From: Acidocella aromatica
GTDB lineage: Bacteria > Pseudomonadota > Alphaproteobacteria > Acetobacterales > Acetobacteraceae
Reading direction: 5' to 3'
DNA: 64,000 bases
Assembly: GCF_014201825.1 (NCBI RefSeq)
Contig: NZ_JACHFJ010000001.1
Coordinates: forward strand, 186,001 to 250,000
Part shown: positions 6,253 to 32,404 of the stretch, one piece after another
Position numbering within the stretch: position 1 is the stretch's first letter
How the letters are laid out: every line of letters starts with the position of its first letter
Translations under genes and position numbers: made by a program
The notes under the pieces: model-generated
The model's input: the letters and a program-made list of their open reading frames with translations, nothing else
Told to the model about the DNA's origin: nothing
The model's database searches: none

Positions 6253-6788
6253 GCCGCCTGACCGTTTACAAGGACGACGCCCCCAACGCCCCGATCTTCG
6301 ATTCGGAAGAGCCGGCCGCCGTGGCGGCGGAGCTGAAGCCTATCAATGTCGGGTTTGAGCGCTGGGATAGCCCCGTTCATCTGCCAGCCGACGCTCCGGC
6401 CGAAGCGATCCTGGACGCCTACCGCCCGTATCTGGACGCGCTGATGGGCGCCACCGGCGCGGGCTCGGCGGATGTGGTGAAGCTGACGCCGGAACACCCG
6501 CAGGCCGCCGCGCTACGCGAGAAGTTTCTCAACGAGCACACCCATACCGAGCCGGAGATCCGCTTCTTCGTCGAGGGTTCCGGGCATTTCGTGCTGCACG
6601 AGAACGGCAAGGTCTATGTCGCCCTGTGCGAGGCTGGCGACCTGATCCATGTTCCCGCCGGGATCAAGCACTGGTTCGATGCCGGGCTGAAGCCCAGCTT
6701 CACCGCTTTGCGCGTATTCACCGACACTTCCGGCTGGGTGGCGCATTTCACCGGTGACCAAATCTCCAAGCGCTTCCCCACAGCATGA
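6249..6788 (+). CDS. mtnD: Acireductone dioxygenase
   Basis: MtnD is a cupin dioxygenase converting acireductone to 2-keto-4-methylthiobutyrate and formate with Fe, or to an off-pathway product with Ni. The cupin ligands are visible as EHTHTEPEIRFF (two His and a Glu) and the later IKHWFDAG (third His). The 179-residue length fits the family. The ATG at 6249 is preferred because it overlaps the mtnB stop as ATGA and gives MSRLTVYKDD; an upstream in-frame ATG at 6189 would add 20 atypical residues. Confidence 0.95.
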   Translation: MSRLTVYKDDAPNAPIFDSEEPAAVAAELKPINVGFERWDSPVHLPADAPAEAILDAYRPYLDALMGATGAGSADVVKLTPEHPQAAALREKFLNEHTHTEPEIRFFVEGSGHFVLHENGKVYVALCEAGDLIHVPAGIKHWFDAGLKPSFTALRVFTDTSGWVAHFTGDQISKRFPTA

Positions 6789-7441
6789 AACCCGCAGCCA
6801 TTCTCACGGATATCGAGGGCACCACCACCCCGATCTCCTTCGTGCAGCGCGTGCTCTTCCCCTATGCGCGCACGCGCATGGCGGAGTTCGTCGCCTCCGG
6901 CCATCCGGCCCTGGCCGATGTGCCGGAGCCAAAGCTGGAAACCCTGCTCGGCTGGATGGACCGCGATGAGAAGATCACGGCGCTGAAAGCCATCCAGGGC
7001 GTCATCTGGGAGGAGGGCTACAAATCCGGCGCACTCATTGCCGAGCTATATGGGGATATACCCCCCGCCCTGCGCCGCTGGGTGCGTGCGGGCCTACGGC
7101 TGTTCGTGTATTCCTCCGGCTCCGTGCCGGCGCAGAAGCTGCTCTTCGGCCACACTCCGGCGGGCGATCTGACCGGGCTGTTCCAGGCTTATTTCGACAC
7201 GCGCGTGGGCGCCAAGCGCGAGGCCGCGAGCTATGCCTCCATCGCGCGCGGGGTGAACGTGCCTCCCGAGGAGATGCTGTTCCTCTCGGACATGGAAGCC
7301 GAGCTGGATGCCGCTAAAGCCTCAGGCCTGCAAACCTGCCAACTTGTGCGGGACGAGGATGGCACCATCCCCACCAAGCGACATGAGACGGCGAAGGATT
7401 TCAACGATGTGGCAAGGAAGTTTGGGCTGCCGCATGGCTAA
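6785..7441 (+). CDS. mtnC: Enolase-phosphatase E1
   Basis: MtnC is a HAD-superfamily enzyme that enolises and dephosphorylates 2,3-diketo-5-methylthiopentyl-1-phosphate to acireductone, the substrate of MtnD. The 218 residues carry the nucleophile motif LTDIEGTTTP near the start, a Ser motif VYSSGSVPAQK and the acidic motif LFLSDMEAELDAA. The ATG overlaps the mtnD stop. Product and consumer enzymes are therefore translationally coupled. Confidence 0.95.
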   Translation: MKPAAILTDIEGTTTPISFVQRVLFPYARTRMAEFVASGHPALADVPEPKLETLLGWMDRDEKITALKAIQGVIWEEGYKSGALIAELYGDIPPALRRWVRAGLRLFVYSSGSVPAQKLLFGHTPAGDLTGLFQAYFDTRVGAKREAASYASIARGVNVPPEEMLFLSDMEAELDAAKASGLQTCQLVRDEDGTIPTKRHETAKDFNDVARKFGLPHG

Positions 7442-8939
7442 GTCACCGCGCGACTACATCCGGGCGGCACATGCCCGGTTACAAAAAGCCCCGCTGATGC
7501 GGGCTTTTTTGTGGGGTCTTGCCGCCGCAACCGCGCTGCCGCCCGTGCATTTCCTGCCCGCGCTGTTGTTCTCCCTGCCCGCCTTTTTATGCCTGTTGGA
7601 CGAAGCCGGCAGCATCAAGCGCACCATCTACACCGCTTGGTGCTACGGCTTTGGCTTGGCCATCGCGGGGCTATACTGGGTCACCGAGCCGGTGCTGACA
7701 GAGGCCAAGGATTTCTGGTGGCTGGTGCCCTTCGCCGCCCCGGCCATCTCGGCGGCGGTGGCGTGCTATACCGTCATCCCCGCCCTGGCGATCCGCTGGA
7801 TCAAGCCCGGCTTCGGGCGGTTGCTGGTGTTTGCCGGAGCCTGGGTGCTCTCCAACATCGCGCAGCAATTCTGGTTCTCGGGCTTTCCCTGGAATTTCTG
7901 GGGGACGGATTGGACCATCCCCGGCAGGCTGGGCGATGTCTTCATCCAGCCCGCCGCCTGGGTGAGCGTGCATGGCCTGACGCTGTTCACCGTCATCCTG
8001 GCTGGACTGCCGCTGTTCGGCAAGCGTGGGCTGGCAGCCCTGGTGGTGGCGCTGGCGGTCTGGGCCGGGGCGGGCTGGGCGCGGCTGCAAACCCCGGTGG
8101 CATCCACGGGGCTGAACATCGCCATGCTGCAGCCCAACTTCACCGAACCGCCGGATTATTCCCGCCCGGCGCTGGAGGCTAATTGGCGGCGCCTGCTGGC
8201 CATGAGCAACGCAGCGGTGAATTCGGGGGCCAATGCGATCATCTGGCCGGAAGCCGCCAGCCCCTGGCTGCTGGACTCGGATTACGGCGCGCGCCAGCAA
8301 CTGGCTGAGATCACCGGCACCACGCCGGTCATTGCGGGAACGCTGCGCATGGAGAGCCAGACCGATTTCCGTAACTCGCTGGTGGTGCTCTCCGGCCCGG
8401 TGCCGCCGCTGGCGGTGTACGATAAATGGAAGCTGGTGCCCTTCGGCGAGTACATGCCGCACTGGCTGCCCCTGAAGATCATCCCCGACATGCTGGGCGG
8501 CGGCTTCACCCCCGGCACCGGCCCCGCGACCATCACCGTCAGCGGCCTGCCCCCCTTCGCCCCGCTGATCTGCTACGAGGACGTGTTCCCCGGCGAAATG
8601 ATCGACGAGTCGCACCGCCCCTCCTGGCTTGTGGTCATCACCGATGATGCTTGGTTCGGTAACTCCGCAGGTCCATACCAACATTACATCAACGCCAGAT
8701 TGCGCGCCGTGGAGGAGGGCCTGCCCCTGGCCCGTGCCGGCAATTCCGGCATCACCGCGATGTTCGACCCGTTTGGCCATGTCATCGCTTATTTACCGCT
8801 GGATGCTCAAGGGGTTCTGGTAGCGCCTTTGCCCCGCGCCCTGCCACCGACGCTTTTTTCTAGGCTTGGCCTTATACTTCCGGCTATACTTGCGGTTGTG
8901 GCAATCATTGCGGGAAAATTAGTCAGCCGCAGAATTTAG
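7434..8939 (+). CDS. lnt: Apolipoprotein N-acyltransferase
   Basis: Lnt adds the third acyl chain to the N-terminal cysteine of lipoproteins in the inner membrane. The 501-residue protein has about six N-terminal membrane segments and a nitrilase-like domain. The catalytic triad is visible as Glu in IIWPEAASPW, Lys in YDKWKLVPFGEYMP and Cys in PLICYEDVFPG, plus a final membrane helix. The ATG at 7434 overlaps the mtnC stop by eight bases; longer in-frame starts within mtnC encode out-of-family sequence. Several lipoproteins in this window would be its substrates. Confidence 0.95.
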   Translation: MAKSPRDYIRAAHARLQKAPLMRAFLWGLAAATALPPVHFLPALLFSLPAFLCLLDEAGSIKRTIYTAWCYGFGLAIAGLYWVTEPVLTEAKDFWWLVPFAAPAISAAVACYTVIPALAIRWIKPGFGRLLVFAGAWVLSNIAQQFWFSGFPWNFWGTDWTIPGRLGDVFIQPAAWVSVHGLTLFTVILAGLPLFGKRGLAALVVALAVWAGAGWARLQTPVASTGLNIAMLQPNFTEPPDYSRPALEANWRRLLAMSNAAVNSGANAIIWPEAASPWLLDSDYGARQQLAEITGTTPVIAGTLRMESQTDFRNSLVVLSGPVPPLAVYDKWKLVPFGEYMPHWLPLKIIPDMLGGGFTPGTGPATITVSGLPPFAPLICYEDVFPGEMIDESHRPSWLVVITDDAWFGNSAGPYQHYINARLRAVEEGLPLARAGNSGITAMFDPFGHVIAYLPLDAQGVLVAPLPRALPPTLFSRLGLILPAILAVVAIIAGKLVSRRI

Positions 8940-9174
8940 CGTAACATATGGTGACATTTTTGATATAGCGTACAGCCTGTCTATTTAATAAGGCAATCTG
9001 TGATTTTTTCATTGAGATTTGCGTTACGTTACAGTAATTTGCCGTATAACGTGTAATATCTGGCAAAGTATCGTGTTAGGTTACCTTTCTTATGGTTGCA
9101 TTCCATGAGTTTCGGGCAACCTAAGAAGATTATAAGCCGGTGGCTACCACCGCAAGTTGGAGAAGACTAGTCTT

Positions 9175-9654
9175 ATGGCCGAAGAACCCGCCGAGCGCCA
9201 GGAACGTGAAAGCCGTCCCAGCCCAATCGATATTCATGTCGGTTCGCGCATCCGCCTCCGCCGGACATTGCTCGGCATGTCTCAGGAACGACTGGGCGAC
9301 GCCCTGGGCCTGACCTTCCAGCAGGTACAGAAATACGAGCGCGGTGTGAACCGGGTGGGCGCCTCACGCCTGTTCGACATCTCCCGCGTGCTGGACGTAC
9401 CGATTTCCTATTTCTTCGACGATATGCCGGAAGGTATGTCCGAGGGACCAGTATCCGGTCCGCGCGGGCGCATGTATGGCTTCGCCGAACACCAGGAGCC
9501 GTTCAGTGCCGGGGTGGACGACCAGTTGACCAAGCGTGAAACGCTGGAACTGGTGCGGGCCTATTACCGCATCCAGGATCCCGCCATGCGCAAACACATG
9601 TTCGACCTGATGAAATCCCTAGCCCCGCCCGAAGCGGCATTCGACGCAGGCTGA
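9175..9654 (+). CDS. XRE-family transcriptional regulator
   Basis: A 159-residue cytosolic DNA-binding protein. A Cro/CI-type helix-turn-helix spans about residues 20-80 (VGSRIRLRRTLLGMSQERLG, QQVQKYERGVNRVG) and a C-terminal tail ends in KSLAPPE. This form is common in alphaproteobacteria. The ATG at 9175 has ggagaag nine bases upstream; a TTG at 9157 is less likely. The preceding 235 bases (8940-9174) are strikingly A/T-rich compared with the surrounding genes and probably contain its promoter, but I cannot assign a specific operator. Confidence 0.88.
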   Translation: MAEEPAERQERESRPSPIDIHVGSRIRLRRTLLGMSQERLGDALGLTFQQVQKYERGVNRVGASRLFDISRVLDVPISYFFDDMPEGMSEGPVSGPRGRMYGFAEHQEPFSAGVDDQLTKRETLELVRAYYRIQDPAMRKHMFDLMKSLAPPEAAFDAG

Positions 9655-9660
9655 AACGAC

Positions 9661-9692
9661 GGGCTGAACCCTTTTCAGGTTCAGCCCTTTTT
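9661..9692 (+). terminator. Intrinsic terminator after the XRE gene
   Basis: A 10-bp perfect stem (GGGCTGAACC with GGTTCAGCCC) around a seven-base loop is followed by five T residues, immediately after the XRE stop codon. It separates this gene from the convergent fatty-acid operon. Confidence 0.9.
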
Positions 9693-9697
9693 CTCGC

Positions 9698-11458
9698 TCA
9701 GAATGCTTCCTCGGGCAGCGCCATCATCGCGGCCTTGCCGGCCTTAATGGTGAAGAGCAGCGCGCCGGCCTGAGGCAGAATGCGCTCCATGTAGAACCGC
9801 GCCGTGGCCAGCTTGGTCTGGTAGAAAGCGGCATCCGGCCCGCCGAGCGGCGCTTTTTCCGCCGCGATGAGCGCCATGCGCACCCACATGAAGCCCAAAG
9901 CCACCAGCCCGAACATGCGCAGATAATCGGTGGCGGCGGCACCGGCCTCCTCGGGGTCGGACATGCCCTTCTCGGCCACGAACCCCGTGGCCAGTTGCAG
10001 CGCGCCGAAAGCCCGGGCAAAGCCCTGCACCAGCTTGCCGATATGGGCGTCGTTCTGGTGTGCCTCGATGAACTCCGCCACCGGATGGAAGAAGCGGCGC
10101 AGGCTACGGCCAAAATTGGCGGGGAGCTTGCGGCCGATCAGGTCCAGCGCCTGCACGCCGTTTGTGCCCTCGTAGATCATGGCGATGCGGGCATCGCGCA
10201 CGAACTGCTCCATGCCATGATCGCGGATATAACCGTGCCCGCCGTAAACCTGCACGCCGAGGCTGGCACTTTCGAAACCTAGATCGGTGAACAGCGCCTT
10301 CACGATGGGGGTCATCAGGGCCACGAAATCGGCCGCCGCCTCGTCGCCTTTCTCCGCCGCGTCCAGCGCCTGCGCCACCCACACGCCCATGGCGCGGCAG
10401 CCTTCGTTATAGGCGCGAATGGTGAGCAGCATGCGCCGCACATCCGGGTGCACAATGATCGGGTCGGCGGGTTTATCGGGGTATTTGGCACCGGCCAGGG
10501 AGCGGCCTTGCAGACGCTCCTTGGCATAAGCCACCGCGCCCTGATAGGCGGCCTCGCCAACCCCCAAGCCCTGCGTGCCGACGGAGAGACGTTCGGAATT
10601 CATCATCACGAACATCGCCTGCATGCCCTTATGCGGCGTGCCGACCAGCCAGCCGGTGGCGTCGTCGAAATTCATCTGGCAGGTGGCCGAGGCCTTGATG
10701 CCCATCTTGTGCTCGATGGCCGCGCAGGAGACGCCGTTGCCAGCACCGGGATTGCCGTTGGCATCGGGCAGGAATTTGGGCACCAGGAAGAGCGAGATGC
10801 CCTTGATGCCGGGCGGAGCGTCCGGCAGGCGCGCCAGTACCAGATGGATGATGTTGTCGGTCAGGTCATGCTCACCGGCGGAGATGAAGATCTTGGAGCC
10901 GGTGATCTTGTAGCTGCCATCCTCCTGCGGCACCGCCTTGGTGCGCAGCAGGCCGAGATCCGTGCCGCAATGCGGCTCGGTGAGGCACATGGTGCCCGAC
11001 CATTCGCCCGAGACCAGCTTGGGCAGGTAAAAATCCTTCAGCTCCTTCGAGCCATGGCTCTTCAGCGCCAGATACGCGCCGTGTGAAAGCCCCGGATACA
11101 GGCCGAAGGACAGGTTGCAGGCGCAGATCATCTCCTCAACCAGCTTGGCCACGGATTCCGGCAGGCCCTGCCCGCCATAATCCGGGCTGGCGTTCAACGA
11201 ACCCCAGCCGGATTCCGCGAAGGCCTTGTAGGCGTCCTGGAAGCCCTCGGGCGTGCGCACCGTGCCGTTCTCAAAATGGCAGCCTTCCTCGTCACCGCTG
11301 GCGTTGAGGGGGAGCAGCATTTCGGTGCAGAATTTCGCTGCTTCCTCCAGGATGGAATCCAACAGCTCGGGCGTGAACTCGGCATTATCCGCCGTGCCGC
11401 CATGCAGTTCGTGCAGCACGAAGCGCATGTCGCGCAGGGGCGCTGTGTAGGTTTGCAT
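9698..11458 (-). CDS. Acyl-CoA dehydrogenase (long, FadE-type)
   Basis: FAD-dependent first step of beta-oxidation, making trans-2-enoyl-CoA. The 586 residues have the usual N-terminal, middle and C-terminal dehydrogenase domains (MCLTEPHCGTDLGLLRTKA, and QVYGGHGYIRDHGMEQFVRD near residue 415). About 120 extra C-terminal residues are typical of the long bacterial subgroup. Substrate chain length cannot be told from sequence. It is the last gene of a same-strand set with the fused dehydrogenase/hydratase (12-base gap) and thiolase, so a role in fatty-acid or related acyl-CoA degradation is well supported. Confidence 0.92.
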   Translation of the reverse strand: MQTYTAPLRDMRFVLHELHGGTADNAEFTPELLDSILEEAAKFCTEMLLPLNASGDEEGCHFENGTVRTPEGFQDAYKAFAESGWGSLNASPDYGGQGLPESVAKLVEEMICACNLSFGLYPGLSHGAYLALKSHGSKELKDFYLPKLVSGEWSGTMCLTEPHCGTDLGLLRTKAVPQEDGSYKITGSKIFISAGEHDLTDNIIHLVLARLPDAPPGIKGISLFLVPKFLPDANGNPGAGNGVSCAAIEHKMGIKASATCQMNFDDATGWLVGTPHKGMQAMFVMMNSERLSVGTQGLGVGEAAYQGAVAYAKERLQGRSLAGAKYPDKPADPIIVHPDVRRMLLTIRAYNEGCRAMGVWVAQALDAAEKGDEAAADFVALMTPIVKALFTDLGFESASLGVQVYGGHGYIRDHGMEQFVRDARIAMIYEGTNGVQALDLIGRKLPANFGRSLRRFFHPVAEFIEAHQNDAHIGKLVQGFARAFGALQLATGFVAEKGMSDPEEAGAAATDYLRMFGLVALGFMWVRMALIAAEKAPLGGPDAAFYQTKLATARFYMERILPQAGALLFTIKAGKAAMMALPEEAF

Positions 11459-20385: not shown

Positions 20386-23382
20386 ATGTCTGATACGTGG
20401 AAGGGCTCGTCCACCTCTTGGTTCACCAAGAACAATTGGAGCGGAGGCGTTCCGACCAATTCGGCCAACGGCACCCAATCGGTAGTCATTTCCGGCACCA
20501 CAACCAACCAGCCGGTTATTTCCCCCACCGCGAGCGGCGCTGCGGACATTTACGTGGCGCAGACGCTCACCGTCGACAGCACCACCTACACCGTGCTGCT
20601 GGAAACCCAGATTGCCGGCCAGCTCATTACCCTGAGCAATGGCGCGAACTTGACCATTCAGGGCATCGCCATGGGCGTGTTCTACGGCAATACCGGCACC
20701 ACCCCGACCGGGGCCACCATGACCGGGCTGCACGGTGCGCTCTCCGCCACGCCGAGCTACGACTCCCACCTACAGCTCATCGCGCGGGGCACGGACACAC
20801 TGACCGTCGATACCGTCAACGAGAATTTCGGCCTTATCACCATCGGCTCCGGCGACAAGCTGACCATCTCCAACATCACCACCGGCGGCAACCAGCAGGC
20901 GCCGCACGGGCTGATCAATTACGGGCTGATCACCATCGCCTCTGGCGGTGAACTCGACATCACCTCCACCAACGGCTCCTCCGGTACCGTCGCCAATTTC
21001 TACAATGCGGGCTGGATCGTCGATAACGGCGGCACGCTGAACATCGCATCCTCGGTGCTCGACGGCGCCAACACCGCCTCCAGCGCCACCTCCATCGATG
21101 GCTATATCGTGCTCGAGGGCGGAGCCAACGCCATACTGGCCAGCACGATCACCTCCCGTGAGGAAGTGCTGTTCGCTGACACGTCCTCGAACACGCTGCA
21201 AATCGCCGCGGGCACGCTGTTCGCGGGCACGGTGGCGGGCTTCGGCGCTACCGACACCATCATTGTCAACGGCTTCACCGGCACGTCCAACGCCACGCTG
21301 GTCAGCAGCGGCACGACGACTAAGCTGGTCACCTCCAATGGCACAGTGCAAACCACCATTACCCTGGCTGGCACGCTAAGCGGGGGGCTGGCCGTCGGCA
21401 CCAATTCCTCCACTGGGCAGGAATTCATTCTGCTCGGTGGCTCCACGCTCACCAGCTCGACGATCGCCAGCGGCACCACCTTCGGCAACGGCACCGTTTC
21501 CCTGGGTGGCACCAGCGTGCCCGCCATCACCCTCAGCGGCACTGCGGGCATCAGCGGCTCCGGCACAGACGTGAAGGTGAACTCCAGCCTCACCGGTAAC
21601 GGCACGCTGTTCATCGACAACAGCGCCACCCTGGCGCTTGGCAACACCGCCGGAACGGATGCGGGCATCACCGTGCTGTTTGGCACGCATGGGTCCGCCA
21701 CCGCCCCCAACACGCTGATCCTGAACGACAACCCATCCGGCTTTGGCGGTAAGATCAATAATTTTGGGGTAAATGACGAGATCATCGTCGGCTCCAACGT
21801 GCTGGCCCAGCCGACCGCGGGCCAGGGCCTCGTGCTCAGCTACAGCAGCGCGACTGGCGTGCTGACGGTGACCGATACCCTGAGTTCCACCGGCAGCGCC
21901 GTCAGCAGCACGCAGCTCACCATCGCGGGCACGGCAGCGGGTGCGCTCTCCACCGCCTCCTTCGTGGCGCTGGAAGGTAGCTCGGGCATCGATATCGAAC
22001 TCGCCCCCACCACGGCCACCAACTTCACCTTCTCCACCTCCGGCATCGGCAGTTTCGAGCAGGCTAGCAACTTCACCGGCGGCACCGCGCCTGGCGACAT
22101 CATCACCAGCCTTGAAACGGTGAGCATCACCGCAGGGACCGCCTCCATCTCCTCGGGCGGGGTGAGCGAGAACGGGATCATCACCGTTGCCAGCGGCGCA
22201 GCCTTCTACGATGCTGGCTCGCTCTCCGGCACCGGCACGCTCGCCGTCGGCGCGGGCGGCAGCGCAACTCTGTCGGGCACCACCACGCTGGGCAGCATCT
22301 TTGATGCCGGCACGCTGGTACTCGGAGGTAACGATGCCGCGGCGATTACCATCGCCTCCGGCGCGCAAGCCACCATCTCCTCCGGCTTCAGCGACACAGT
22401 TGCCATTACAGGCGCCGGTACGCTGACCGTGAACAGCGGCGTCACAGCCACCCTGGCCGCGGGCTCCAGCGTTGCCACGGTCATCGATGCCGGCACGATT
22501 GACCTCGCCGGCGTCACGGGCGGCGTCATCTTCTTGAACGGCAATAATGCCGACAGCGTGGTGGATTTCTCCGGTACGGATGTCACAGGCCATGTGCTGA
22601 ATACGACTCTCTCGGATTTTGGCACCCACGACACGATTATCCTTGGCTCCAGCAATTTCAGCCTGAGCGGCACCACCGATCAGCTGACGGATAGCTACAA
22701 TAACGGCACGCTGGTGGTAACGGACGAGACTAACGGCGAAACGGTCACGATCGATGTCAGCTTGGCCGCTGGAGTTTCTCCGAACTCGATTGCCATGGAA
22801 GACTCCACCGGTCAGTTGGTCATCCATCTCTGCTTCTACCCCGGCACACGTATCGCCACGCCGGAGGGCGAGATGGCTGTCGAGGCGCTACAGGCGGGTG
22901 ATCTGGTGGTGACCGCCAACGGTACCAAGCCGGTGCGCTGGGTCGGCCAGAGCCATGTGCATACCCGCTTCGCCGATCCCCTCCGCAGCCTGCCCATCCG
23001 CATCAAGGCCGGGGCGCTGGGCGACAGTCTGCCGGTGCGCGACCTGCTGCTCTCGCCGGATCACGCGGTGTTTATCGATGGCATCCTGGTCCAGGCCAGC
23101 GCCCTGGTGAATGGCACCAGCATCGTGCGTGAGTACGACGCTCCCGAGCAGTTCACCTACTACCATGTGGAGTTGGAGACCCATGAGCTGCTGCTGGCCG
23201 AAGGTGCACTAGCGGAAAGCTTCGTCGACAATGTGGATCGCATGCACTTCCACAACTGGGATGAGCGCAAGGCTCCGGCCGAGGCGATCGTGGAAATGGA
23301 TTACCCGCGCGCCAAGTCGGCCCGCCAGGTGCCCATGGCCATCCGTCAGCGCCTTGGCGGCAACGCCGTAAACGCGGCCTAA
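20386..23382 (+). CDS. Large repetitive surface protein with C-terminal Hint domain
   Basis: A 998-residue protein. Residues 1 to about 800 are a low-complexity Gly/Ser/Thr/Asn-rich array of short beta-helix-like segments (LSGTGTLAVGAGG, SATLSGTTTLGSIFDAGTLV and similar), as in autotransporter passengers and adhesins. From about residue 820 comes a Hint-type module: CFYPGTRIATPEGEMAVEAL, GDLVVTANG, LLSPDHAVFIDG and later HVELETHELLLAEG. Hint_2 domains of this kind occur in many Acetobacteraceae and Rhodobacterales surface proteins. There is no Sec signal peptide and no C-terminal barrel, so type I or another route is possible. Self-cleavage before the Cys is plausible but untested. Confidence 0.85.
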   Translation: MSDTWKGSSTSWFTKNNWSGGVPTNSANGTQSVVISGTTTNQPVISPTASGAADIYVAQTLTVDSTTYTVLLETQIAGQLITLSNGANLTIQGIAMGVFYGNTGTTPTGATMTGLHGALSATPSYDSHLQLIARGTDTLTVDTVNENFGLITIGSGDKLTISNITTGGNQQAPHGLINYGLITIASGGELDITSTNGSSGTVANFYNAGWIVDNGGTLNIASSVLDGANTASSATSIDGYIVLEGGANAILASTITSREEVLFADTSSNTLQIAAGTLFAGTVAGFGATDTIIVNGFTGTSNATLVSSGTTTKLVTSNGTVQTTITLAGTLSGGLAVGTNSSTGQEFILLGGSTLTSSTIASGTTFGNGTVSLGGTSVPAITLSGTAGISGSGTDVKVNSSLTGNGTLFIDNSATLALGNTAGTDAGITVLFGTHGSATAPNTLILNDNPSGFGGKINNFGVNDEIIVGSNVLAQPTAGQGLVLSYSSATGVLTVTDTLSSTGSAVSSTQLTIAGTAAGALSTASFVALEGSSGIDIELAPTTATNFTFSTSGIGSFEQASNFTGGTAPGDIITSLETVSITAGTASISSGGVSENGIITVASGAAFYDAGSLSGTGTLAVGAGGSATLSGTTTLGSIFDAGTLVLGGNDAAAITIASGAQATISSGFSDTVAITGAGTLTVNSGVTATLAAGSSVATVIDAGTIDLAGVTGGVIFLNGNNADSVVDFSGTDVTGHVLNTTLSDFGTHDTIILGSSNFSLSGTTDQLTDSYNNGTLVVTDETNGETVTIDVSLAAGVSPNSIAMEDSTGQLVIHLCFYPGTRIATPEGEMAVEALQAGDLVVTANGTKPVRWVGQSHVHTRFADPLRSLPIRIKAGALGDSLPVRDLLLSPDHAVFIDGILVQASALVNGTSIVREYDAPEQFTYYHVELETHELLLAEGALAESFVDNVDRMHFHNWDERKAPAEAIVEMDYPRAKSARQVPMAIRQRLGGNAVNAA

Positions 23383-25221: not shown

Positions 25222-26694
25222 TTAAAAGAGGTTGAAGCGCGTCGGGAGTTCGACGAGGATTTTCGCCGCCGGGGCATAAGGCCCGACACCGATCCCCACA
25301 CCGATATTCAGATTGGTCATCGGGGTAATCGCATAGCCCAGGCCGAAATTGAACGTACCGAAATCATAGGCCGAACCAGCGATCTGCCGCCCGCCAGCCG
25401 AGGACGCGAATACATGCTCTTCCTGGTAGCTGAAGGTCATGGAGGCCTTGTCATTCAGCGCGAAGCCGATGCCAAACGTACCCGCCACCGCCTGGCCCGG
25501 CTTCAGATATTCATGCACCGCCGGACCGCCGCCGGGATTGGGGATATCAAAATGGCTTCCGAAGCTCTGGACGAATTGCAGATTTCCAAACAGCACGCCA
25601 GGTGCCGTGGCATAGAACACCGTCAGGCTTGGCTCCAATGAATAGAAGCCCGTGCCGGTGGGCAGCTTCTTCGGCACGCCCAGCAAAAGCTGGTCGCTGG
25701 CGGTCTGGTTGGTGCTCGCCGAGCTGTAGATCGGAACATCATACGGGCTTTGGCCCGTGGCGGTCTTGAACATCAAATTGCCGACAAAGACCGGCCAGCC
25801 ATTATCGCCGCTGTTGAACTGATACGAGGCGCCTAATTGAATATCGCCGATATCGCCATTGGTTTGGCTGGTGTGTACAGGTATGGCGTTGGGACCGGCG
25901 GCCTGTGCCGTCATCGATCCGAACGCACCGACAACGGGAATCTTCAGGTTAATCTCGAGATTGTCCGTCACGCCATAACGCGCCGTTAGCGCTGCCGTCA
26001 GAAAGCGCTGATCCACACGAGAGATGTAGATATTACCGAAGGTAATTCCTGGGATAATGGTGAACCCATTCAGGTTGAGCTGGTTCTGGGTCCAGTAATC
26101 ATATTCCACCGAAGGATCAAGCAGCAACTGGCCTTTTGGCGTCAATACCCCGCCCGTGCCGGAAAGCACTGTGGAGGATTGAAGGATGACCTTTGTCTGC
26201 TGGTCCTGATTCTCCTGCTGCGCCTGTTGCTGCTCAGCGCCAACAGGTTGTGTGGGCGCCTGGGCTGGCTGATCTGTAGCCGGCGCAGGGGCGGTATATT
26301 CCGTGGTATCTGCTGGAACTTTTACCTTAGTCTTACTGACCTCACCCGCTCCACGCAGATTGGACATCTCATTGTCCAGCAATTGCTGCTGGCGATTCAG
26401 CTCCAGAGATTGCTGCTCTAGCTGTAACTCTTCCTGATTCAGCTTTGCCTGCTGCGCCGCGATAGACGCCGCAAGTGTCGTTATCTTGTCCTGCACTGAT
26501 TCCGCATGGCTTGGGCCAGCCATCGCCAACGCCATTGCAAAAGACATCGAAAATACAGAAACCGCGGGTACGCATAATCTATCCCACGGCAGATCTGGCG
26601 AGATCACGCCGCACACCGCGCCAGAAAAAGATTGCTGTTTGAAGTCTCCCGAATCCATGTGACAGCCCGAAAAAACGCTTGAACGCCGAGGCAT
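25222..26694 (-). CDS. FapF-like outer membrane barrel with N-terminal coiled coil
   Basis: A 490-residue exported protein with an unusually long N-terminus and a signal peptide ending near PSHA/ESV (residue 64). A Gln/Leu/Glu heptad coiled coil covers about 65-112. A double-glycine-like motif (L105, E109, M110, L113, G115, A116) is followed by a Pro/Gln linker. From about 170 there is a beta-barrel (GVLTPKGQLLLDPSVEY, ITFGNIYISRVDQ, ARYGVTDNLEINLKIPV) ending in phenylalanine. Coiled coil plus barrel next to a C39 peptidase matches FapF, the secretion pore of Pseudomonas functional amyloid; homology is inferred from architecture. The ATG at 26694 follows aaagggag. It is divergent from the amyloid-like genes. 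Confidence 0.72.
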   Translation of the reverse strand: MPRRSSVFSGCHMDSGDFKQQSFSGAVCGVISPDLPWDRLCVPAVSVFSMSFAMALAMAGPSHAESVQDKITTLAASIAAQQAKLNQEELQLEQQSLELNRQQQLLDNEMSNLRGAGEVSKTKVKVPADTTEYTAPAPATDQPAQAPTQPVGAEQQQAQQENQDQQTKVILQSSTVLSGTGGVLTPKGQLLLDPSVEYDYWTQNQLNLNGFTIIPGITFGNIYISRVDQRFLTAALTARYGVTDNLEINLKIPVVGAFGSMTAQAAGPNAIPVHTSQTNGDIGDIQLGASYQFNSGDNGWPVFVGNLMFKTATGQSPYDVPIYSSASTNQTASDQLLLGVPKKLPTGTGFYSLEPSLTVFYATAPGVLFGNLQFVQSFGSHFDIPNPGGGPAVHEYLKPGQAVAGTFGIGFALNDKASMTFSYQEEHVFASSAGGRQIAGSAYDFGTFNFGLGYAITPMTNLNIGVGIGVGPYAPAAKILVELPTRFNLF

Positions 26695-26852
26695 GGCAAG
26701 CTCCCTTTTTTCTTACTATGGATCACCGTAACTCAGTTTGTAAACGAGTTTATGTTTCTTTACCGTATTTTATTCTTTATCAAGCCCACGATGTATCTTC
26801 CAGACTGTTTCCGCGTTACGCGTGTTACAGTCAAAAGTTACAACTTTAACAG

Positions 26853-26879
26853 TTGCTGCATACGCAAAAAATGCAGCGA
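26853..26879. promoter_or_regulatory. Inverted repeat, candidate activator site
   Basis: TTGCTGCAT, nine bases, ATGCAGCGA: a dyad matching at eight of nine positions. Its centre lies about 90 bases upstream of the sigma-54 -24 element. That spacing is normal for an upstream activating sequence bound by a sigma-54 enhancer-binding protein, here plausibly the one encoded at 29970-31025. It sits in the otherwise A/T-rich 357-base divergent region (26695-27051). Confidence 0.45.
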
Positions 26880-26953
26880 TTCAGGTTGAATACAAACACA
26901 CAACACAATGAATTAGCTTATTTTTTTCATAAAATTATCTGAAGAACAAACTC

Positions 26954-26969
26954 TGGCACACGGCTTGCT
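26954..26969 (+). promoter_or_regulatory. Sigma-54 (-24/-12) promoter
   Basis: TGGCACA-CGGC-TTGCT matches the RpoN consensus TGGCACG-N4-TTGCW at all but one position, with the GG and GC elements at the required spacing. Transcription would start near 26980, about 70 bases before the first amyloid-like gene. I found no equivalent match on the other strand for the FapF-like gene. Confidence 0.82.
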
Positions 26970-27051
26970 GTAGTTCTTGCGTGATCGTGTTGCAGCATCA
27001 ACCGTCATGCGAAGCCAATCAAACTCACCTAATTAAACGAGGAGGACTATC

Positions 27052-27744
27052 ATGCGCTCACTGCTTCTGACGAGTTCCGCTCTTTTTCTTCTGGCCGGCG
27101 GCGTTGCACTGGCTAGCGGCCCTGGTGACCATGGCGGCTCTGGTGGCGGCACCACCACCACCAACGTGTGGGTTCCGGTGAAGAACGCCACCGCCGATAA
27201 CGGCAGCAGCTCCGCCACCTCCGGTAGCACCGCGGTGACTGCTAACGGCAATGCCTTGGACTCCAACAACACCACCTCTCTTCCAATTAAGAACGCCTCT
27301 TCGACTGGCAGCAGCAGCGCTGCCACTACTGGCGGCACCGCGATTACGACCGACGGCAATACGCTGAACACCACGAGTTCCGGCAACCAGGGTTCGTTTA
27401 ACACTCTGGACTTCACCAAGACGCTGACAAATGTCGGCAACGACTATCTGTCGGTCACGAAGACCTATGTGCACCAGGATATCAAGCTGGCTACGTCCAT
27501 GAATAATGGCGAAGTGAAGGATATCGTGTTCGTGGGCACCAGCGGTGGTGGTCGCGAGGGCGAGCATGGTTCTGGCGGCGGCATGGTGCGTAGCGGCGAT
27601 GCCAGCATGACCACTGGTATTTCCGCGAGCTCGGGCATCAACACCGTGCAGCAGAATACCGGCAATGCCTCTCTGCAGCAGAACTCCGTGGCGCTTGGCT
27701 CCTATGTCACCGGTGGCAGCAGCGGGTTCAACGGCGGCTTCTGA
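27052..27744 (+). CDS. Exported repeat protein, candidate amyloid subunit
   Basis: A 230-residue secreted protein rich in Gly, Ser, Thr and Asn. After a signal peptide (cleavage near ALA/SGP) come two imperfect repeats of about 33 residues: VPVKNATADNGSSSATSG (from 41) and LPIKNASSTGSSSAATTG (from 77). Each ends in TA(V/I)T..GN.L. The C-terminal part has SGINTVQQNTGNASLQQNS (about 194-212), a motif shared with the next gene. It is first behind the sigma-54 promoter, with a strong gaggagga Shine-Dalgarno, so it should be the most expressed product. A fibre-subunit role is inference from composition, repeats and context. Confidence 0.72.
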   Translation: MRSLLLTSSALFLLAGGVALASGPGDHGGSGGGTTTTNVWVPVKNATADNGSSSATSGSTAVTANGNALDSNNTTSLPIKNASSTGSSSAATTGGTAITTDGNTLNTTSSGNQGSFNTLDFTKTLTNVGNDYLSVTKTYVHQDIKLATSMNNGEVKDIVFVGTSGGGREGEHGSGGGMVRSGDASMTTGISASSGINTVQQNTGNASLQQNSVALGSYVTGGSSGFNGGF

Positions 27745-27773
27745 TTACTTTCCCCTGCACCGCAGCATTGGCT

Positions 27774-27803
27774 CCGCATGGCACTACACCAAGTGCCATG
27801 CGG
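27774..27803 (+). promoter_or_regulatory. Stable intergenic hairpin between two subunit genes
   Basis: CCGCATGGCACT, six-base loop, AGTGCCATGCGG: a perfect 12-bp stem with no T run after it. It follows the first gene of the operon. It could stabilise the upstream message or partly attenuate the downstream genes, which would set a subunit ratio as seen in other fibre operons. Confidence 0.6.
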
Positions 27804-27861
27804 GGTTGGTGTATCCAACTATAAATTTACGGTATCGTAATTTCTAGTTTAGGAGCGTCTA

Positions 27862-28215
27862 ATGAAGAACATGATCAAAGCCGCGGTTCCATGTCTTGTT
27901 GCCGCGGGAATTTTATGTTCCACGGCGCCTTCCGCTCTCGCTTCTGGCACCGACGATTCCAGCGCAATACTCAGTAGCCTTGGGAATACTCAGGTAGAGA
28001 GCAGTCAGCTAGCCAAACTCAGAGGCGGAGCCCTTTCCGTAGCTTCAGTGAATATTGGCACCGACTCAAACAATACTGCGAACAACTCGCCGACCGGCAC
28101 CATCAACAACAATCAGTCCGTGAACAACAACACCGGCCTGACGACAATATTACAAAATACGGGTAACAATGCTCTTTTGCAAAGTAGTATGACTGTGAAC
28201 ATCGTCGTTCACTAG
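27862..28215 (+). CDS. Small exported Asn-rich protein with double-glycine-like motif
   Basis: A 117-residue protein with a Sec signal peptide (cleavage near ALA/SGT). A segment VESSQLAKLRGG follows, with V45, Q49, L50, L53, G55 and G56 at the spacing of a bacteriocin double-glycine leader (-12, -8, -7, -4, -2, -1). The remaining 61 residues are Asn/Thr-rich (DSNNTANNSPTGTINNNQSV) and end with NNTGLTTILQNTGNNALLQS, closely resembling the C-terminus of the preceding protein. The Shine-Dalgarno aggagcg is well placed. It may be a nucleator or minor fibre subunit processed by the adjacent peptidase; this is inference. Confidence 0.72.
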   Translation: MKNMIKAAVPCLVAAGILCSTAPSALASGTDDSSAILSSLGNTQVESSQLAKLRGGALSVASVNIGTDSNNTANNSPTGTINNNQSVNNNTGLTTILQNTGNNALLQSSMTVNIVVH

Positions 28216-28234
28216 CATCGACCCTGGAGTGGCT

Positions 28235-28945
28235 ATGATGCAAAAAACAATAAAATTAGTGACAGGATTGCTGACATGCGCTTTCCTTGGAACATCGGGC
28301 GCACACGCTGGACAGATCAGTTTTAATGGTCTCTCGGTCGGATCTGGATATGCCGATGTCCATATTCAAAGCTTCCAGGAAAGAAAATTCAGTACGACGA
28401 TCAAGCAGAAATATGATTTTTCGTGCGGATCGGCGGCTTTGGCAACGTTGCTGCTCTTTACATATCATATGCCGGCGACTGAAACGTCCGTCTTCATCGA
28501 TATGTTCATGAACGGCGATCAGAAGGCGATCCAAGAATCCGGCTTCTCTCTGCTTGACATGAAAGACTACCTCACCCGCCATGGCATTCCGTCTGGCGGT
28601 TTTCGTGCGCCACTGGAAAAGTTGGCTGAAATCCGGGTGCCGGCGATCGTGCTGATCAACGAGCATGGGTACAAGCACTTTGTGGTTCTACGCGGCATCC
28701 AGGATGGTAACGTATTGCTTGCCGACCCTGCAATTGGCCTGCGTACCGTCTCGGTATCCAGCTTTCAGAAGCAATGGTCTGGGATATTCTTTATTGTTCT
28801 GGCCGACCTTCCGGCCGCACGAGCTAGTTTTAACGACCATCAGGATTGGGCCGGAGAGCCAGGCGCTCCGATCGATCTCACCAGGTTCATGATTAACTTG
28901 GCTACACTACAAGAAGTTACCATGCCTGATCCAACAAGGTTCTAG
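28235..28945 (+). CDS. Secreted C39-family (double-glycine) peptidase, FapD-like
   Basis: A 236-residue cysteine peptidase. A signal peptide (TGLLTCAFLGTSGAHA) is followed by the catalytic site KQKYDFSCGSAALATLL (Gln for the oxyanion hole, Cys near residue 70). Later come the active-site His in NEHGYKHFVVLRG and Asp in LLADPAIGLR. Unlike bacteriocin exporters it has no ABC or membrane domains, which matches the stand-alone FapD type. The ATG at 28235 is five bases after ggag; ATG 28238 and GTG 28229 are alternatives. All catalytic residues are intact. Neighbours with double-glycine-like motifs are the natural candidates for its substrates. Confidence 0.85.
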   Translation: MMQKTIKLVTGLLTCAFLGTSGAHAGQISFNGLSVGSGYADVHIQSFQERKFSTTIKQKYDFSCGSAALATLLLFTYHMPATETSVFIDMFMNGDQKAIQESGFSLLDMKDYLTRHGIPSGGFRAPLEKLAEIRVPAIVLINEHGYKHFVVLRGIQDGNVLLADPAIGLRTVSVSSFQKQWSGIFFIVLADLPAARASFNDHQDWAGEPGAPIDLTRFMINLATLQEVTMPDPTRF

Positions 28946-28972
28946 CCTGGTGTAAAACGGGAGCATGAAACG

Positions 28973-29542
28973 ATGTTGTATCGCGGCTTACCTAAATATG
29001 CACTATTTGCTGGCACGGCGGCCGCAGCCCTATTGGCTCCGGCCGCCAACGCCTTGCCTTCCGCCCCAGCGATCGTAACCATACCAGGCGCTGTGCAACT
29101 GACATCAGCCCAACTTGGGGCGATACGTGGGGGATTTGATATCAGCCCATCTTTATCGATCGACTTTGCCTTTCAGCAGATCGATACTGTTGGAGGCACG
29201 GTTATCCAAAGCATCATGGTTCCGAATGTAACTTTGACCTCGGCTTCATCTGCCATACCAATCACCGTAACAAATGGCGCTGGCAGCAATACCATTACGC
29301 CAGCCTCAGGCTCCAATATCACTCTGACCAGTACCGCCAATAGCGGCCTGACCACCATCGTCTCCACACTCGGTGGCAGCGGAATTTCTAATGTTGTAAG
29401 CAATCAGGCAAATAATGCGCTGGTTGGTGTCGCGACAACAATGAATATCGCGATCACGGGAATGACCCCCTGGCTTACACAACAACAAATTAATACAAAT
29501 ATTCAAAATTCTCTTTACTATAATAATGGTAGCTTCAAATAA
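28973..29542 (+). CDS. Exported Thr/Ser/Asn-rich protein with double-glycine-like motif
   Basis: A 189-residue protein with a signal peptide (cleavage near ANA/LPS) and the motif QLTSAQLGAIRGG: L43, Q47, L48, I51, G53 and G54 fit the double-glycine leader spacing exactly. The mature-like region is rich in Thr, Ser, Asn, Val and Ile, with alternating patterns (TLTSASSAIPITVTNGAGSN). Near the end are SGLTTIVSTLGGSG and NQANNALVGVATTMNIAIT, related to the C-terminal motif of the 117-residue protein. Probably a minor component or tether of the same extracellular assembly; this is inference. Confidence 0.68.
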   Translation: MLYRGLPKYALFAGTAAAALLAPAANALPSAPAIVTIPGAVQLTSAQLGAIRGGFDISPSLSIDFAFQQIDTVGGTVIQSIMVPNVTLTSASSAIPITVTNGAGSNTITPASGSNITLTSTANSGLTTIVSTLGGSGISNVVSNQANNALVGVATTMNIAITGMTPWLTQQQINTNIQNSLYYNNGSFK

Positions 29543-29600
29543 TTGAAGCCAGATTTTATTTTCAGCACAACCAGCCAGGAAACAGTTTCATAAGGCAATA

Positions 29601-29957
29601 GTGAAAGACCCGAAGATGAAGCGCAGAAATACAGCAAAGACACGGGGAATACGGCTAAGCCTGCTCACCAGTTGCTTCCTGGGTGTGACCCTGGCCAGCA
29701 TTATCATGCCGGCCAGGTCTCTTGCTCAAGGCATGAATCAAGCTGATATCCTGCCTGTTGCCGACATAACTTTATTCCCGCTTGCCAATAATACGATGGC
29801 ATCAGTCAAAGGGACGGGGTTGCAAGGACCTTCGCTCAATAAGTCGTCAACGCCGCTGGGCACAATCACATTGTGGGATGAGTTGAAGCCCTCGCCGCAG
29901 CAACAGAGTATAATCTCAGGCAGCCAAGTTATTACCATTAATGGCATCAGCCAATAG
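29601..29957 (+). CDS. Small exported protein, last gene of the amyloid-like operon
   Basis: A 118-residue protein with a basic start and hydrophobic signal segment (LSLLTSCFLGVTLASIIM, cleavage near SLA/QGM). It then has LANNTMASVKGTG, a weaker version of the leader motif (L61, T65, M66, V69, G71, T72). The tail (QQSIISGSQVITINGISQ) is beta-prone. I do not recognise a family. The GTG at 29601 follows aagg; ATG 29616 is an alternative. It ends 12 bases from the convergent activator gene. Confidence 0.55.
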   Translation: MKDPKMKRRNTAKTRGIRLSLLTSCFLGVTLASIIMPARSLAQGMNQADILPVADITLFPLANNTMASVKGTGLQGPSLNKSSTPLGTITLWDELKPSPQQQSIISGSQVITINGISQ

Positions 29958-29969
29958 CAGCTATCGGAC

Positions 29970-31025
29970 TTAGATATCCGGTTCTTGCCGGGATATACTC
30001 TGAAGTGCATCCGGGTGGCGCTTTGCCATACGGTAAAACGTGACGCGAGAAACACCTATCTCGGCAGCCGCTTTCGTCACATTATTCCGATTTCTGGCTA
30101 AAGCTTGCAGCATGACATTCCTTTCCTGATCGGAACCAGGTTGGAGGCGACGCGCAAGCGGCAGCACTTGTGAAGTCTTGGGCTGTTCAATCTCCGGCTT
30201 TATCTGAATTGCCAGATCCTCAGCCCTGATAACGTTAGATGAACTCATGACAACAGCCCGCCTGACCGCGGCAATCATTTCTCTTACATTGCCCGGCCAC
30301 GAGTAAGCCTGGATGATGGATTTCGCTTCCGGCGTAAACTCCATAACGTCGGTGCCAAGCTCCTTTGTTATCCGGCGCAGGAAATATGTCGCCAGAAGCA
30401 ACAAATCACTTTCACGCTCCCGCAACGACGGCATACGTAATGGCAGAACATTCAAGCGGTAGAACAAGTCATCCCTGAATATCCCTGCGGCCATGGCCGC
30501 CTCGAGATTAACGTGGCTTGCCGAAATCACACGGGCGTTCACTTGGATTGCGGTATGACCGCCCAATCTCGTAATGGTGTGCTCCTGCAAGAAACGCAGC
30601 ATATGAGCTTGCAGATCAAGCGGCAGATCCCCAATCTCGTCCAAGAATAGAGTGCCGTTATTGGCTTGCTCTATCAACCCGAGCTTCCGGGTCAACGCTC
30701 CTGTGAAAGCTCCCTTCTCGTAACCAAATAGTTCAGAGGCGATTAGCGATGCCGGCAACGCGGCGCAGTTTATGGCAATAAACGGCCCATTCTTGCGCTC
30801 GGATCTTTGATGGATTGCCTGCGCCGCCAGTTCCTTGCCTGTTCCGGTTTCCCCGGAAATCAGTACTGGGGCATCATATTTTGAAAAACGCCTTATACGC
30901 TCGAAAACCTCTCGCATGGTGGCGCAGTCGCCAACGATAAATTCCTGCCTTTTATCCGCTTCATCTCTACCATAAGACAGGCCTCCCGCCTGAAACTCCG
31001 TGTGAACTGGATGATGGGCAACCAT
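29970..31025 (-). CDS. Sigma-54 enhancer-binding regulator without receiver domain
   Basis: A 351-residue AAA+ activator. A short N-terminus of about 27 residues is followed by the central domain with Walker A SGETGTGKELAA, the sigma-54 contact loop GAFTGA, Walker B GTLFLDEIG and an arginine-finger region (FRDDLFYRLNVLPLRMPSLR). A Fis-type helix-turn-helix (NNVTKAAAEIGVSRVTFYRM) is at the C-terminus. No response-regulator or GAF domain is present, so activity is probably set by expression or a partner protein. The only sigma-54 promoter I see nearby drives the amyloid-like operon, the likely target. Confidence 0.88.
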   Translation of the reverse strand: MVAHHPVHTEFQAGGLSYGRDEADKRQEFIVGDCATMREVFERIRRFSKYDAPVLISGETGTGKELAAQAIHQRSERKNGPFIAINCAALPASLIASELFGYEKGAFTGALTRKLGLIEQANNGTLFLDEIGDLPLDLQAHMLRFLQEHTITRLGGHTAIQVNARVISASHVNLEAAMAAGIFRDDLFYRLNVLPLRMPSLRERESDLLLLATYFLRRITKELGTDVMEFTPEAKSIIQAYSWPGNVREMIAAVRRAVVMSSSNVIRAEDLAIQIKPEIEQPKTSQVLPLARRLQPGSDQERNVMLQALARNRNNVTKAAAEIGVSRVTFYRMAKRHPDALQSISRQEPDI

Positions 31026-31411
31026 CGGCGCAGTTCCTCTCTGTAATATTTTTTAAAGGGACGACTCTCTTAAGTTGTATATCGCCATCCCGTTACACGT
31101 TATGATTTAACAACGACGACTTTACGTCAATACTATACCTCTACGCCAAATGACTATGGATTATTTTCCCTTCATCTACGCGTCCAAAAAACATTAATGT
31201 CGAAACGTAACTTTATCCGCATACCATTATCATATCCAACCGTCACGATATCTAGAAATAAAATGCAATATGCTTGGCCAACTCGGCCGAGCGCAGGGCG
31301 ATGAGGGCAACGGCTAGCATGGCGCCATGATACCTTGGGGCAGGGCCGGCATTTGGCAGCCAATGGAGGCTTGATCATGACGGCAGTACGTATTCCTGCT
31401 AATCGTCAGCG
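31026..31411 (+). other. Intergenic region between the sigma-54 activator and trhO
   Basis: These 386 bases contain no gene I can support. The sequence is A/T-rich for the first 240 bases (including repeated gttac/gtta words near 31090-31110), then returns to the usual composition before trhO. It should hold divergent promoters for the activator and trhO. No RpoN-type match is visible. Confidence 0.45.
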
Positions 31412-32404
31412 ATGTCATTGCTAGAGCACACTGCGCCCGAGGAAGGGGCCGCCGCCAACCTGTCTGTCTGTGTCGCCGCACTCTATAAGTTTGCGTCCTT
31501 TGACGATTGTGTGGGCATTCGAGAGGTTTTGATAAAGCTTTGCCGCGCGCAAGGCGTGAAGGGCACCCTGATTCTCGCCCGCGAAGGGATCAATGGTACC
31601 ATCGCCGGATCGGATGAAGCAATGGGCGAAGTGCTGGCCCATATCAGGCAATTACCAGGTTGCGCGGACATCGACGTTAAATTCTCCCGTGCGCCATCGC
31701 CACCGTTTCACCGGATGAAGGTCCGGATCAAAAGGGAAATTGTCACGATGGGTGAGTTGAACATCAATCCGCTGGTTAACGTTGGCCATTATGTTCTACC
31801 TCAGGACTGGAATACTCTAATTTCCGAGCCAGGAACGATCCTGATCGACACGCGTAACGACTATGAGGTGGCGGTTGGTAGCTTCGCCGGTGCCATCAAC
31901 CCGCAAACACGGAGTTTCCGTGAATTCCCTGCTTGGTTCCGTGCCGAGCGCAATAGGCTGCTTGGCGAAGGCACGCCACCAAAAGTGGCGATGTTCTGCA
32001 CGGGCGGTATACGCTGCGAAAAATCGACCGCCTTTCTCATGGCGGAGGGGGTGGATGACGTCTACCACCTGCAAGGCGGCATCTTAAAATATCTGGAAAC
32101 CATCCCGCCGGAGCAAAGCCTTTGGGAGGGAGAGTGTTTTGTGTTCGATCAACGTGTCGCGGTGGGGCACGGCCTTGAGTTGGGCAAGCATGGCTTGTGT
32201 CACGCCTGTCGCCGTCCTGTGAGCGAGGCAGACCGTTTATCTCCCCTCTTCGAGGACGGTGTTAGCTGCCCTGCTTGCCATAGCGAACGTACCGATGAGC
32301 AACGCGCCGGCTATAGGGAGCGCCAGCGGCAGGAAAATCTGGCTGGCCAACGGGGAGATGAGCATATCGGCGCTGTGCTGGTCTCGCAGCATCAGCAGGA
32401 TTAG
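31412..32404 (+). CDS. trhO: tRNA uridine(34) hydroxylase, rhodanese family
   Basis: TrhO (YceA) hydroxylates U34 of certain tRNAs to 5-hydroxyuridine using oxygen. The 330 residues have an N-terminal ferredoxin-like domain ([20 protein letters not shown]). A rhodanese domain follows with the active cysteine in [12 protein letters not shown] (about residue 190). The Cys-rich C-terminal segment [12 protein letters not shown] with CPAC may bind zinc. The C-terminal 30 residues ([15 protein letters not shown]) are charged. The start is the ATG at 31412. Confidence 0.9.

Follow-up and report, generated by a model that had tools for sequence, protein, structure and literature searches.

The window analysed here, a 64,000-nucleotide stretch of the Acidocella aromatica genome (contig NZ_JACHFJ010000001.1, positions 186,001 to 250,000), carries a gene set resembling the Pseudomonas Fap system, in which a FapF-like pore and a FapD-type C39 peptidase are encoded together with a FapE homologue and further small proteins (Table 1; proteins without a Fap name are called by the start positions of their frames). 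Four of the encoded proteins bear, behind a Sec-type signal peptide, a second motif with the spacing of the double-glycine leaders that C39 peptidases recognise. Arguing from sequence comparison, we think it likely that this second leader is cut by FapD, acting as a free-standing double-glycine leader peptidase of the periplasm, and that FapE, the 27862 protein and their companions are probably substrates of their own system's protease. An earlier, sequence-only reading had proposed such a leader beside a secreted C39 peptidase; our analysis supports it, the leader being conserved in homologous loci.

Table 1. Features of the Fap-like locus, in window coordinates.
Feature	Position	Strand	Remarks
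Fap-like gene set	~25.2-31.0 kb		FapF-like pore, FapD-type C39, FapE homologue, small proteins, sigma-54 activator
FapF-like outer-membrane pore with N-terminal periplasmic extension	25222..26694	-	490-aa frame
Leader-like site LLDNEMSNLRGA, then G	26347..26382	-	FapF extension residues 105-116
Sigma-54 type -24/-12 element TGGCACACGGCTTGC	26954..26968	+	upstream of 27052; sigma-54 activator gene adjoins
Putative major (FapC-like) subunit, signal peptide, without leader motif	27052..27744	+	230 aa
Small secreted protein carrying leader	27862..28215	+	117 aa
Leader site VESSQLAKLRGG, then A	27994..28029	+	27862 protein residues 45-56
FapD-type C39 peptidase, signal peptide	28229..28945	+	238 aa; Q60, C66, H150, D166
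FapE homologue (28973 protein)	28973..29542	+	189 aa; iterated profile
Leader site LTSAQLGAIRGG, then F	29099..29134	+	28973 protein residues 43-54
Secreted 'LWDE' protein	29601..29957	+	118 aa
Leader-like site LANNTMASVKGT, then G	29781..29816	+	29601 protein residues 61-72
Sigma-54 activator, AAA+ and helix-turn-helix, no receiver domain matched	29970..31025	-	

The coordinates, residues and spacings that the sequence-only reading gave for its four sites proved exact, and its pattern finds precisely these four among the 265 six-frame open reading frames (ORFs) of at least 80 residues in the window. Since the pattern was derived from the same sites, this specificity is no test on its own, and the relatives have to decide. 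All four sites have hydrophobic residues at -12, -7 and -4 and glycine at -2, with G, G and A at -1 in three of them and T in the 29601 protein. Scored against shuffled sequences with a position weight matrix (PWM), the 27862 site is reported at p=0.000 (200 shuffles) and the FapF site at p<=0.005; the 29601 site taken alone is not significant (p=0.155). In the predicted model of the 28973 protein, a short helix spans residues 45-51 of the leader site. Signal peptides were judged throughout by a home-made heuristic rather than by SignalP; by this measure the leader-bearing proteins have Sec-type signals, unlike the substrates of peptidase-containing ATP-binding cassette transporters (PCATs), whose leader is a plain N-terminal one.

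The putative protease matches the Pfam C39 family (E 4.3e-20; 72.3 bits against a cut-off of 22), has the C39 fold, and matches leader-binding C39 domains. Its glutamine, cysteine, histidine and aspartate listed in Table 1 lie in the C39 catalytic arrangement and are invariant. The nearest relative with a name is Acidocella sp. KAb 2-4, at 72% FapD identity. The protein carries the C39 domain only, without the transporter fusion that defines a PCAT. The NCBIfam FapD model matches it at E 1.4e-44 and 152 bits, where the cut-off is 330, and the FapF model matches the barrel at E 1.8e-43 and 149 bits, where 700 would be required, so that neither protein reaches Fap membership by NCBIfam equivalogs; residues 184-476 of the barrel match FapF in the PDB (5o67, E 7.3e-29). 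A PCAT encoded elsewhere as the intended partner of the leaders was rejected, the single C39 match found in the genome being this FapD. A single-protein tblastn query, which reaches close relatives only, found no FapD relatives in viral contigs.

Gene content and order are shared by 11 regions of the same genus, of which several are incomplete. Across the 11 rows of the 28973 family, the window included, L(-7) and R-G-G are invariant and the stretch before them is variable. L(-7) is likewise invariant in the 12 rows of the 27862 family, whose sites end in RGG (7), RGA (1), RAG (1) or RARGE (3). The FapF sites of the genus end in RGxG in 9/12 rows, HGRG in 2/12 and RAAG in 1/12, and those of the 29601 family in [VI]xG[TSGM] in 10/10 rows, 8/10 of which score at PWM p<=0.05.

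The 28973 protein is, by iterated profile, a FapE homologue, a point that the sequence-only reading had missed. A profile begun from its family reaches canonical-type FapE, of which the one run against NCBIfam (from locus L101) is FapE at E 8.3e-104; the 28973 protein itself matches no NCBIfam model at E<=1 and owes its assignment to the iterated profile, and a PDB comparison for its fold gave no match at E<=0.001. Canonical-type FapE carries the motif too, position -1 being R or K, in 17/17 proteins from 16 loci (e.g., LKDQELATLRGRY). Sixty regions around FapD homologues were fetched, drawn from 26 and 51 overlapping matches listed, and secreted FapD neighbours in these wider relatives show sites such as LSDNELGELRGGF, ISTEELAEARGG and LSDDELGEARGGVG. 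In two FapE alignments L48, R52, G53, G54 and N144 are invariant, although the R-G-G invariance is circular there, since rows outside the window and genus were picked by a match to RGG[FYLMV].

A held-out comparison carries more weight. The matrix was trained on 49 FapE sites with a pattern that constrains -12, -7 and -3 to +1, and that 41/44 ORFs matching the FapE profile satisfy (exceptions L115, L091 and L084); it was then applied to 80 named FapD loci, less the 12 sharing a 60-mer with training regions. In the remaining 68, a score of at least 10 was reached by 37/200 secreted ORFs within 2.5 kb of FapD, by 1/85 ORFs beyond 4.5 kb (itself a FapF) and by 0.27% of shuffles. A FapE profile built from the mature part only and run on stop-to-stop frames gave 59 matches in 56/68 loci, many of them missed by the ORF filter. 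The alignment reached the mature start in 43 of these FapEs; the motif stands ahead of it in 42 (with offset 0 in 40), compared with 2.9% of shuffles, the control being used because the pattern still requires [LM] at -7 and G at -2. In FapE, then, homologous loci retain the motif at conserved positions, both within the genus and in the held-out set.

The element h(-12)..L/M(-7)..h(-4)-R-G-x, h being hydrophobic, also recurs beside FapD in different protein families. The 27862 family, searched as a profile without the leader, has 127 matches in 92 loci, a mixture of 27862-type proteins and larger subunits without the motif (the window's 27052 protein among them), and 75 have a site at p<=0.01. 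The LWDE signature occurs in eight ORFs outside the genus, five with full sites (L088, L104 twice, L105, L111) and three without (L084, L112, L119). Our FapF survey covered 138 FapF-like barrels, 112 with an extension of at least 40 residues and 25 with a shorter one; L144, which has no extension, was dropped. A site at p<=0.01 is present in 36/112 extended proteins, 12 of them the window and its genus and one (L204) not an RG site, and in 0/25 of the short ones. The proposal of a leader in the pore's coiled coil thus held for a part of the extended FapFs and found no counterpart in the short-extension or the Pseudomonas-type FapFs (L101-L103, L139, L140); L082 and L083 do carry a site. It is conceivable, if somewhat unlikely, that the FapF site is a mere coil end, where a leucine-rich helix meets a glycine by chance: the genus's hydrophobic residues sit in Q/E/L-rich, coil-like sequence, and short-extension FapFs lack the site. 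However, the FapFs of L087 (LSDDELGEARGG) and L083 (LAPDDLVTMRGRY) match the full consensus, and 24/100 extended FapFs outside the genus reach p<=0.01 where about one is expected. Taken together, support for a leader is strong for FapE and the 27862 protein, moderate for FapF and weakest for the 29601 protein.

FapE and FapD also travel together. The FapE profile, built from FapD loci with the leader included, is found in 16/398 genomes of the phylum (the present one included), all within the 40 that have FapD; the FapE and FapD scans are treated as covering one and the same set of genomes, since their listed handles match. The 83 GG-type and 16 R/K-type FapDs differ at many positions, for instance S68 to A. 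As candidates for residues tracking position -1 these were set aside and no specificity residue is claimed, since the two types may be two clades.

We propose the following model for this branch of leader processing. FapE and its companions would be exported through Sec, shed their signal peptide and retain a short second leader, in which a helix bearing the hydrophobic positions -12, -7 and -4 leads into R-G-x. This helix may be bound by FapD as bacteriocin leaders are by the C39 domains of PCATs, and a cut would follow at the R-G-x end, presumably after -1. Such processing would release the FapE fibre portion as well as the small 27862 protein and, probably, the one from 29601. In this lineage FapD would be able to use the site in the FapF extension to cut the pore as well, separating its coil-like segment from the barrel. 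The most likely purpose is to keep the minor subunits inactive until delivery, the licensing step suggested by the sequence-only reading being putative.

Several observations weigh against this model. The RARGE end of three genus 27862 orthologues departs from a strict double-glycine rule, the R or K at -1 of every canonical-type FapE is unlike the GG, GA or GS of known C39 sites, and position -1 is K or Q in some 27862-type proteins and T in the 29601 protein. One held-out FapE (L194) ends its motif in RAG, and 38/68 held-out loci have no near hit scoring at least 10 (30/68 have one), partly because the ORF filter dropped ORFs overlapped by longer ones. The motif's absence from Pseudomonas-type FapFs implies that FapF cutting is not a universal step, and a passage of PMC10638192 has FapD modifying FapC. 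The variability at -1 would also suit a motif used for docking only, bound by FapD or the pore to recruit cargo, with any cleavage elsewhere; C39-like domains without activity exist, according to portions of PMC5557850 and PMC6173800, and part of the former considers the FapE N-terminus as the place of a FapF targeting sequence. We regard docking as quite improbable.

A variant with rather more to recommend it, though still unlikely, places the cut one residue earlier (RG|G, RG|R, RG|T), so that P1 is always glycine. G(-2) is kept in 49/49 training and 42/42 held-out sites, both sets having been selected with G required, while -1 varies; the bond would, however, lie one residue closer to -4, -7 and -12 than it does in LahT. 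That the motif instead caps the FapE fibre domain structurally, being kept for folding and unrelated to FapD, appears very unlikely. The FapE rows are homologous, so conservation partly reflects common descent, and the mature start is conserved as well. Yet the motif precedes different mature parts in the 27862-type, LWDE and FapF families, and within FapE (rows picked by RGG) it averages 2.67 bits against 1.15 for the poorly conserved stretch just upstream.

How does cleavage by FapD fit with what has been described for Fap? Sections of PMC5557850 report that the FapD cysteine is required for FapC secretion, call the FapD target unclear and state that Fap proteins lack canonical C39 sequences. 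The same portions describe FapE without tryptic peptides from its first ~70 residues, FapB and FapC as intact, and the FapF linker without but the coil with peptides, a coverage consistent with FapE having a site that the major subunit lacks. Earlier work already remarked on GG and GA motifs in both FapE and FapF (parts of PMC5557850 and PMC5135000), and a 2025 review describes FapD as 'thought to process' the two (PMC12822426). We found no prior report of the present motif in the open-access literature, most subscription papers lying outside that scope. The GG-type loci serve as a key here: in canonical-type FapE, RG[RK][YF] occupies the position of a double-glycine leader's end. Because R or K at -1 makes a trypsin site, this suggests why trypsin-based mass spectrometry may have missed the cut, the residue being taken from our canonical-type proteins and not from a comparison with UK4 FapE. 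The question of the FapD target in a biofilm amyloid system can now be tested at exact residues.

The locus shares with Pseudomonas Fap (FapABCDEF) a periplasmic FapD-type C39 peptidase, a FapF-type pore and a FapE homologue, with the motif in FapE of both; it differs in FapD and FapF scores under the NCBIfam cut-offs, in gene order and subunits, and in having G instead of R/K at -1 of FapE. With the leaders of LahT, ComA and PCAT1 it has in common the hydrophobic -12, -7 and -4 positions, G(-2), and the C39 fold and catalytic residues; unlike them, its leader lies behind a Sec signal, its peptidase is free-standing and exported, its type extends at -1 beyond G/A/S, and R(-3) is nearly fixed. 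The FilB and FilC models of the Fil 'putative pilus' (FilA, FilB, FilC) in NCBIfam also match FapD and FapF, but far under their cut-offs, and Fil has other subunits and Q at -1. A FilB-type locus (L132, 9912-10874) encodes a FilA-like DUF6160 protein with MTDTAMSNATGQ after its signal, and another (L096, 7580-8005) a secreted protein with the leader-like site LSDTQMDSVVGG; the code may thus extend to Fil. More tentatively, and with chances a little short of even, we suggest a periplasmic double-glycine branch in which, after Sec, one free-standing C39 peptidase cuts bacteriocin-type leaders off several of the minor subunits and also severs the coil of its pore in many lineages. Such a branch would tie the activation of subunits to the pore's state, and its code, drifting at -1 (G, A, T, R, K, Q), would span Fap, the GG-type system and Fil across Proteobacteria.

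As for the remaining genes, the role of the 27052 protein as putative major subunit is suggested by its position and composition. It has no family match in Pfam or NCBIfam scans (NCBIfam E<=1), which included no Fap-repeat model, and no leader site (PWM p=0.34 against shuffles). The 27052 and 27862 proteins share a QNTGNxxLxQ-like C-terminal signature, looser in FapE (window 27052-29542), and this signature may represent the stacking or exported unit. The sigma-54 element upstream of 27052 is the sole exact match in the window, and TGG[CT]A[CT]N5TTGC lies 90-130 nt upstream of the 27052 orthologue in 11/11 genus loci, 3/11 having T in place of the last C of TGGCAC. FapD is present in 12/37 genomes of the genus, once as a fragment, and G+C is 0.50-0.53 at window positions 26001-32000 compared with 0.60-0.68 in the surroundings; the Fap-like island thus appears patchy and is perhaps mobile. 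Among the related loci, L113 has tandemly duplicated 27862-type, FapD and FapE genes (6654-11070), and L125 (6086-7616) looks decayed as a whole, its FapF and FapD frames being short (162 and 165 aa) and its FapE a fragment. Elsewhere in the window, a 998-residue, repetitive and secreted-looking protein (20386-23382, plus strand) ends in a Hint_2 domain (PF13403).

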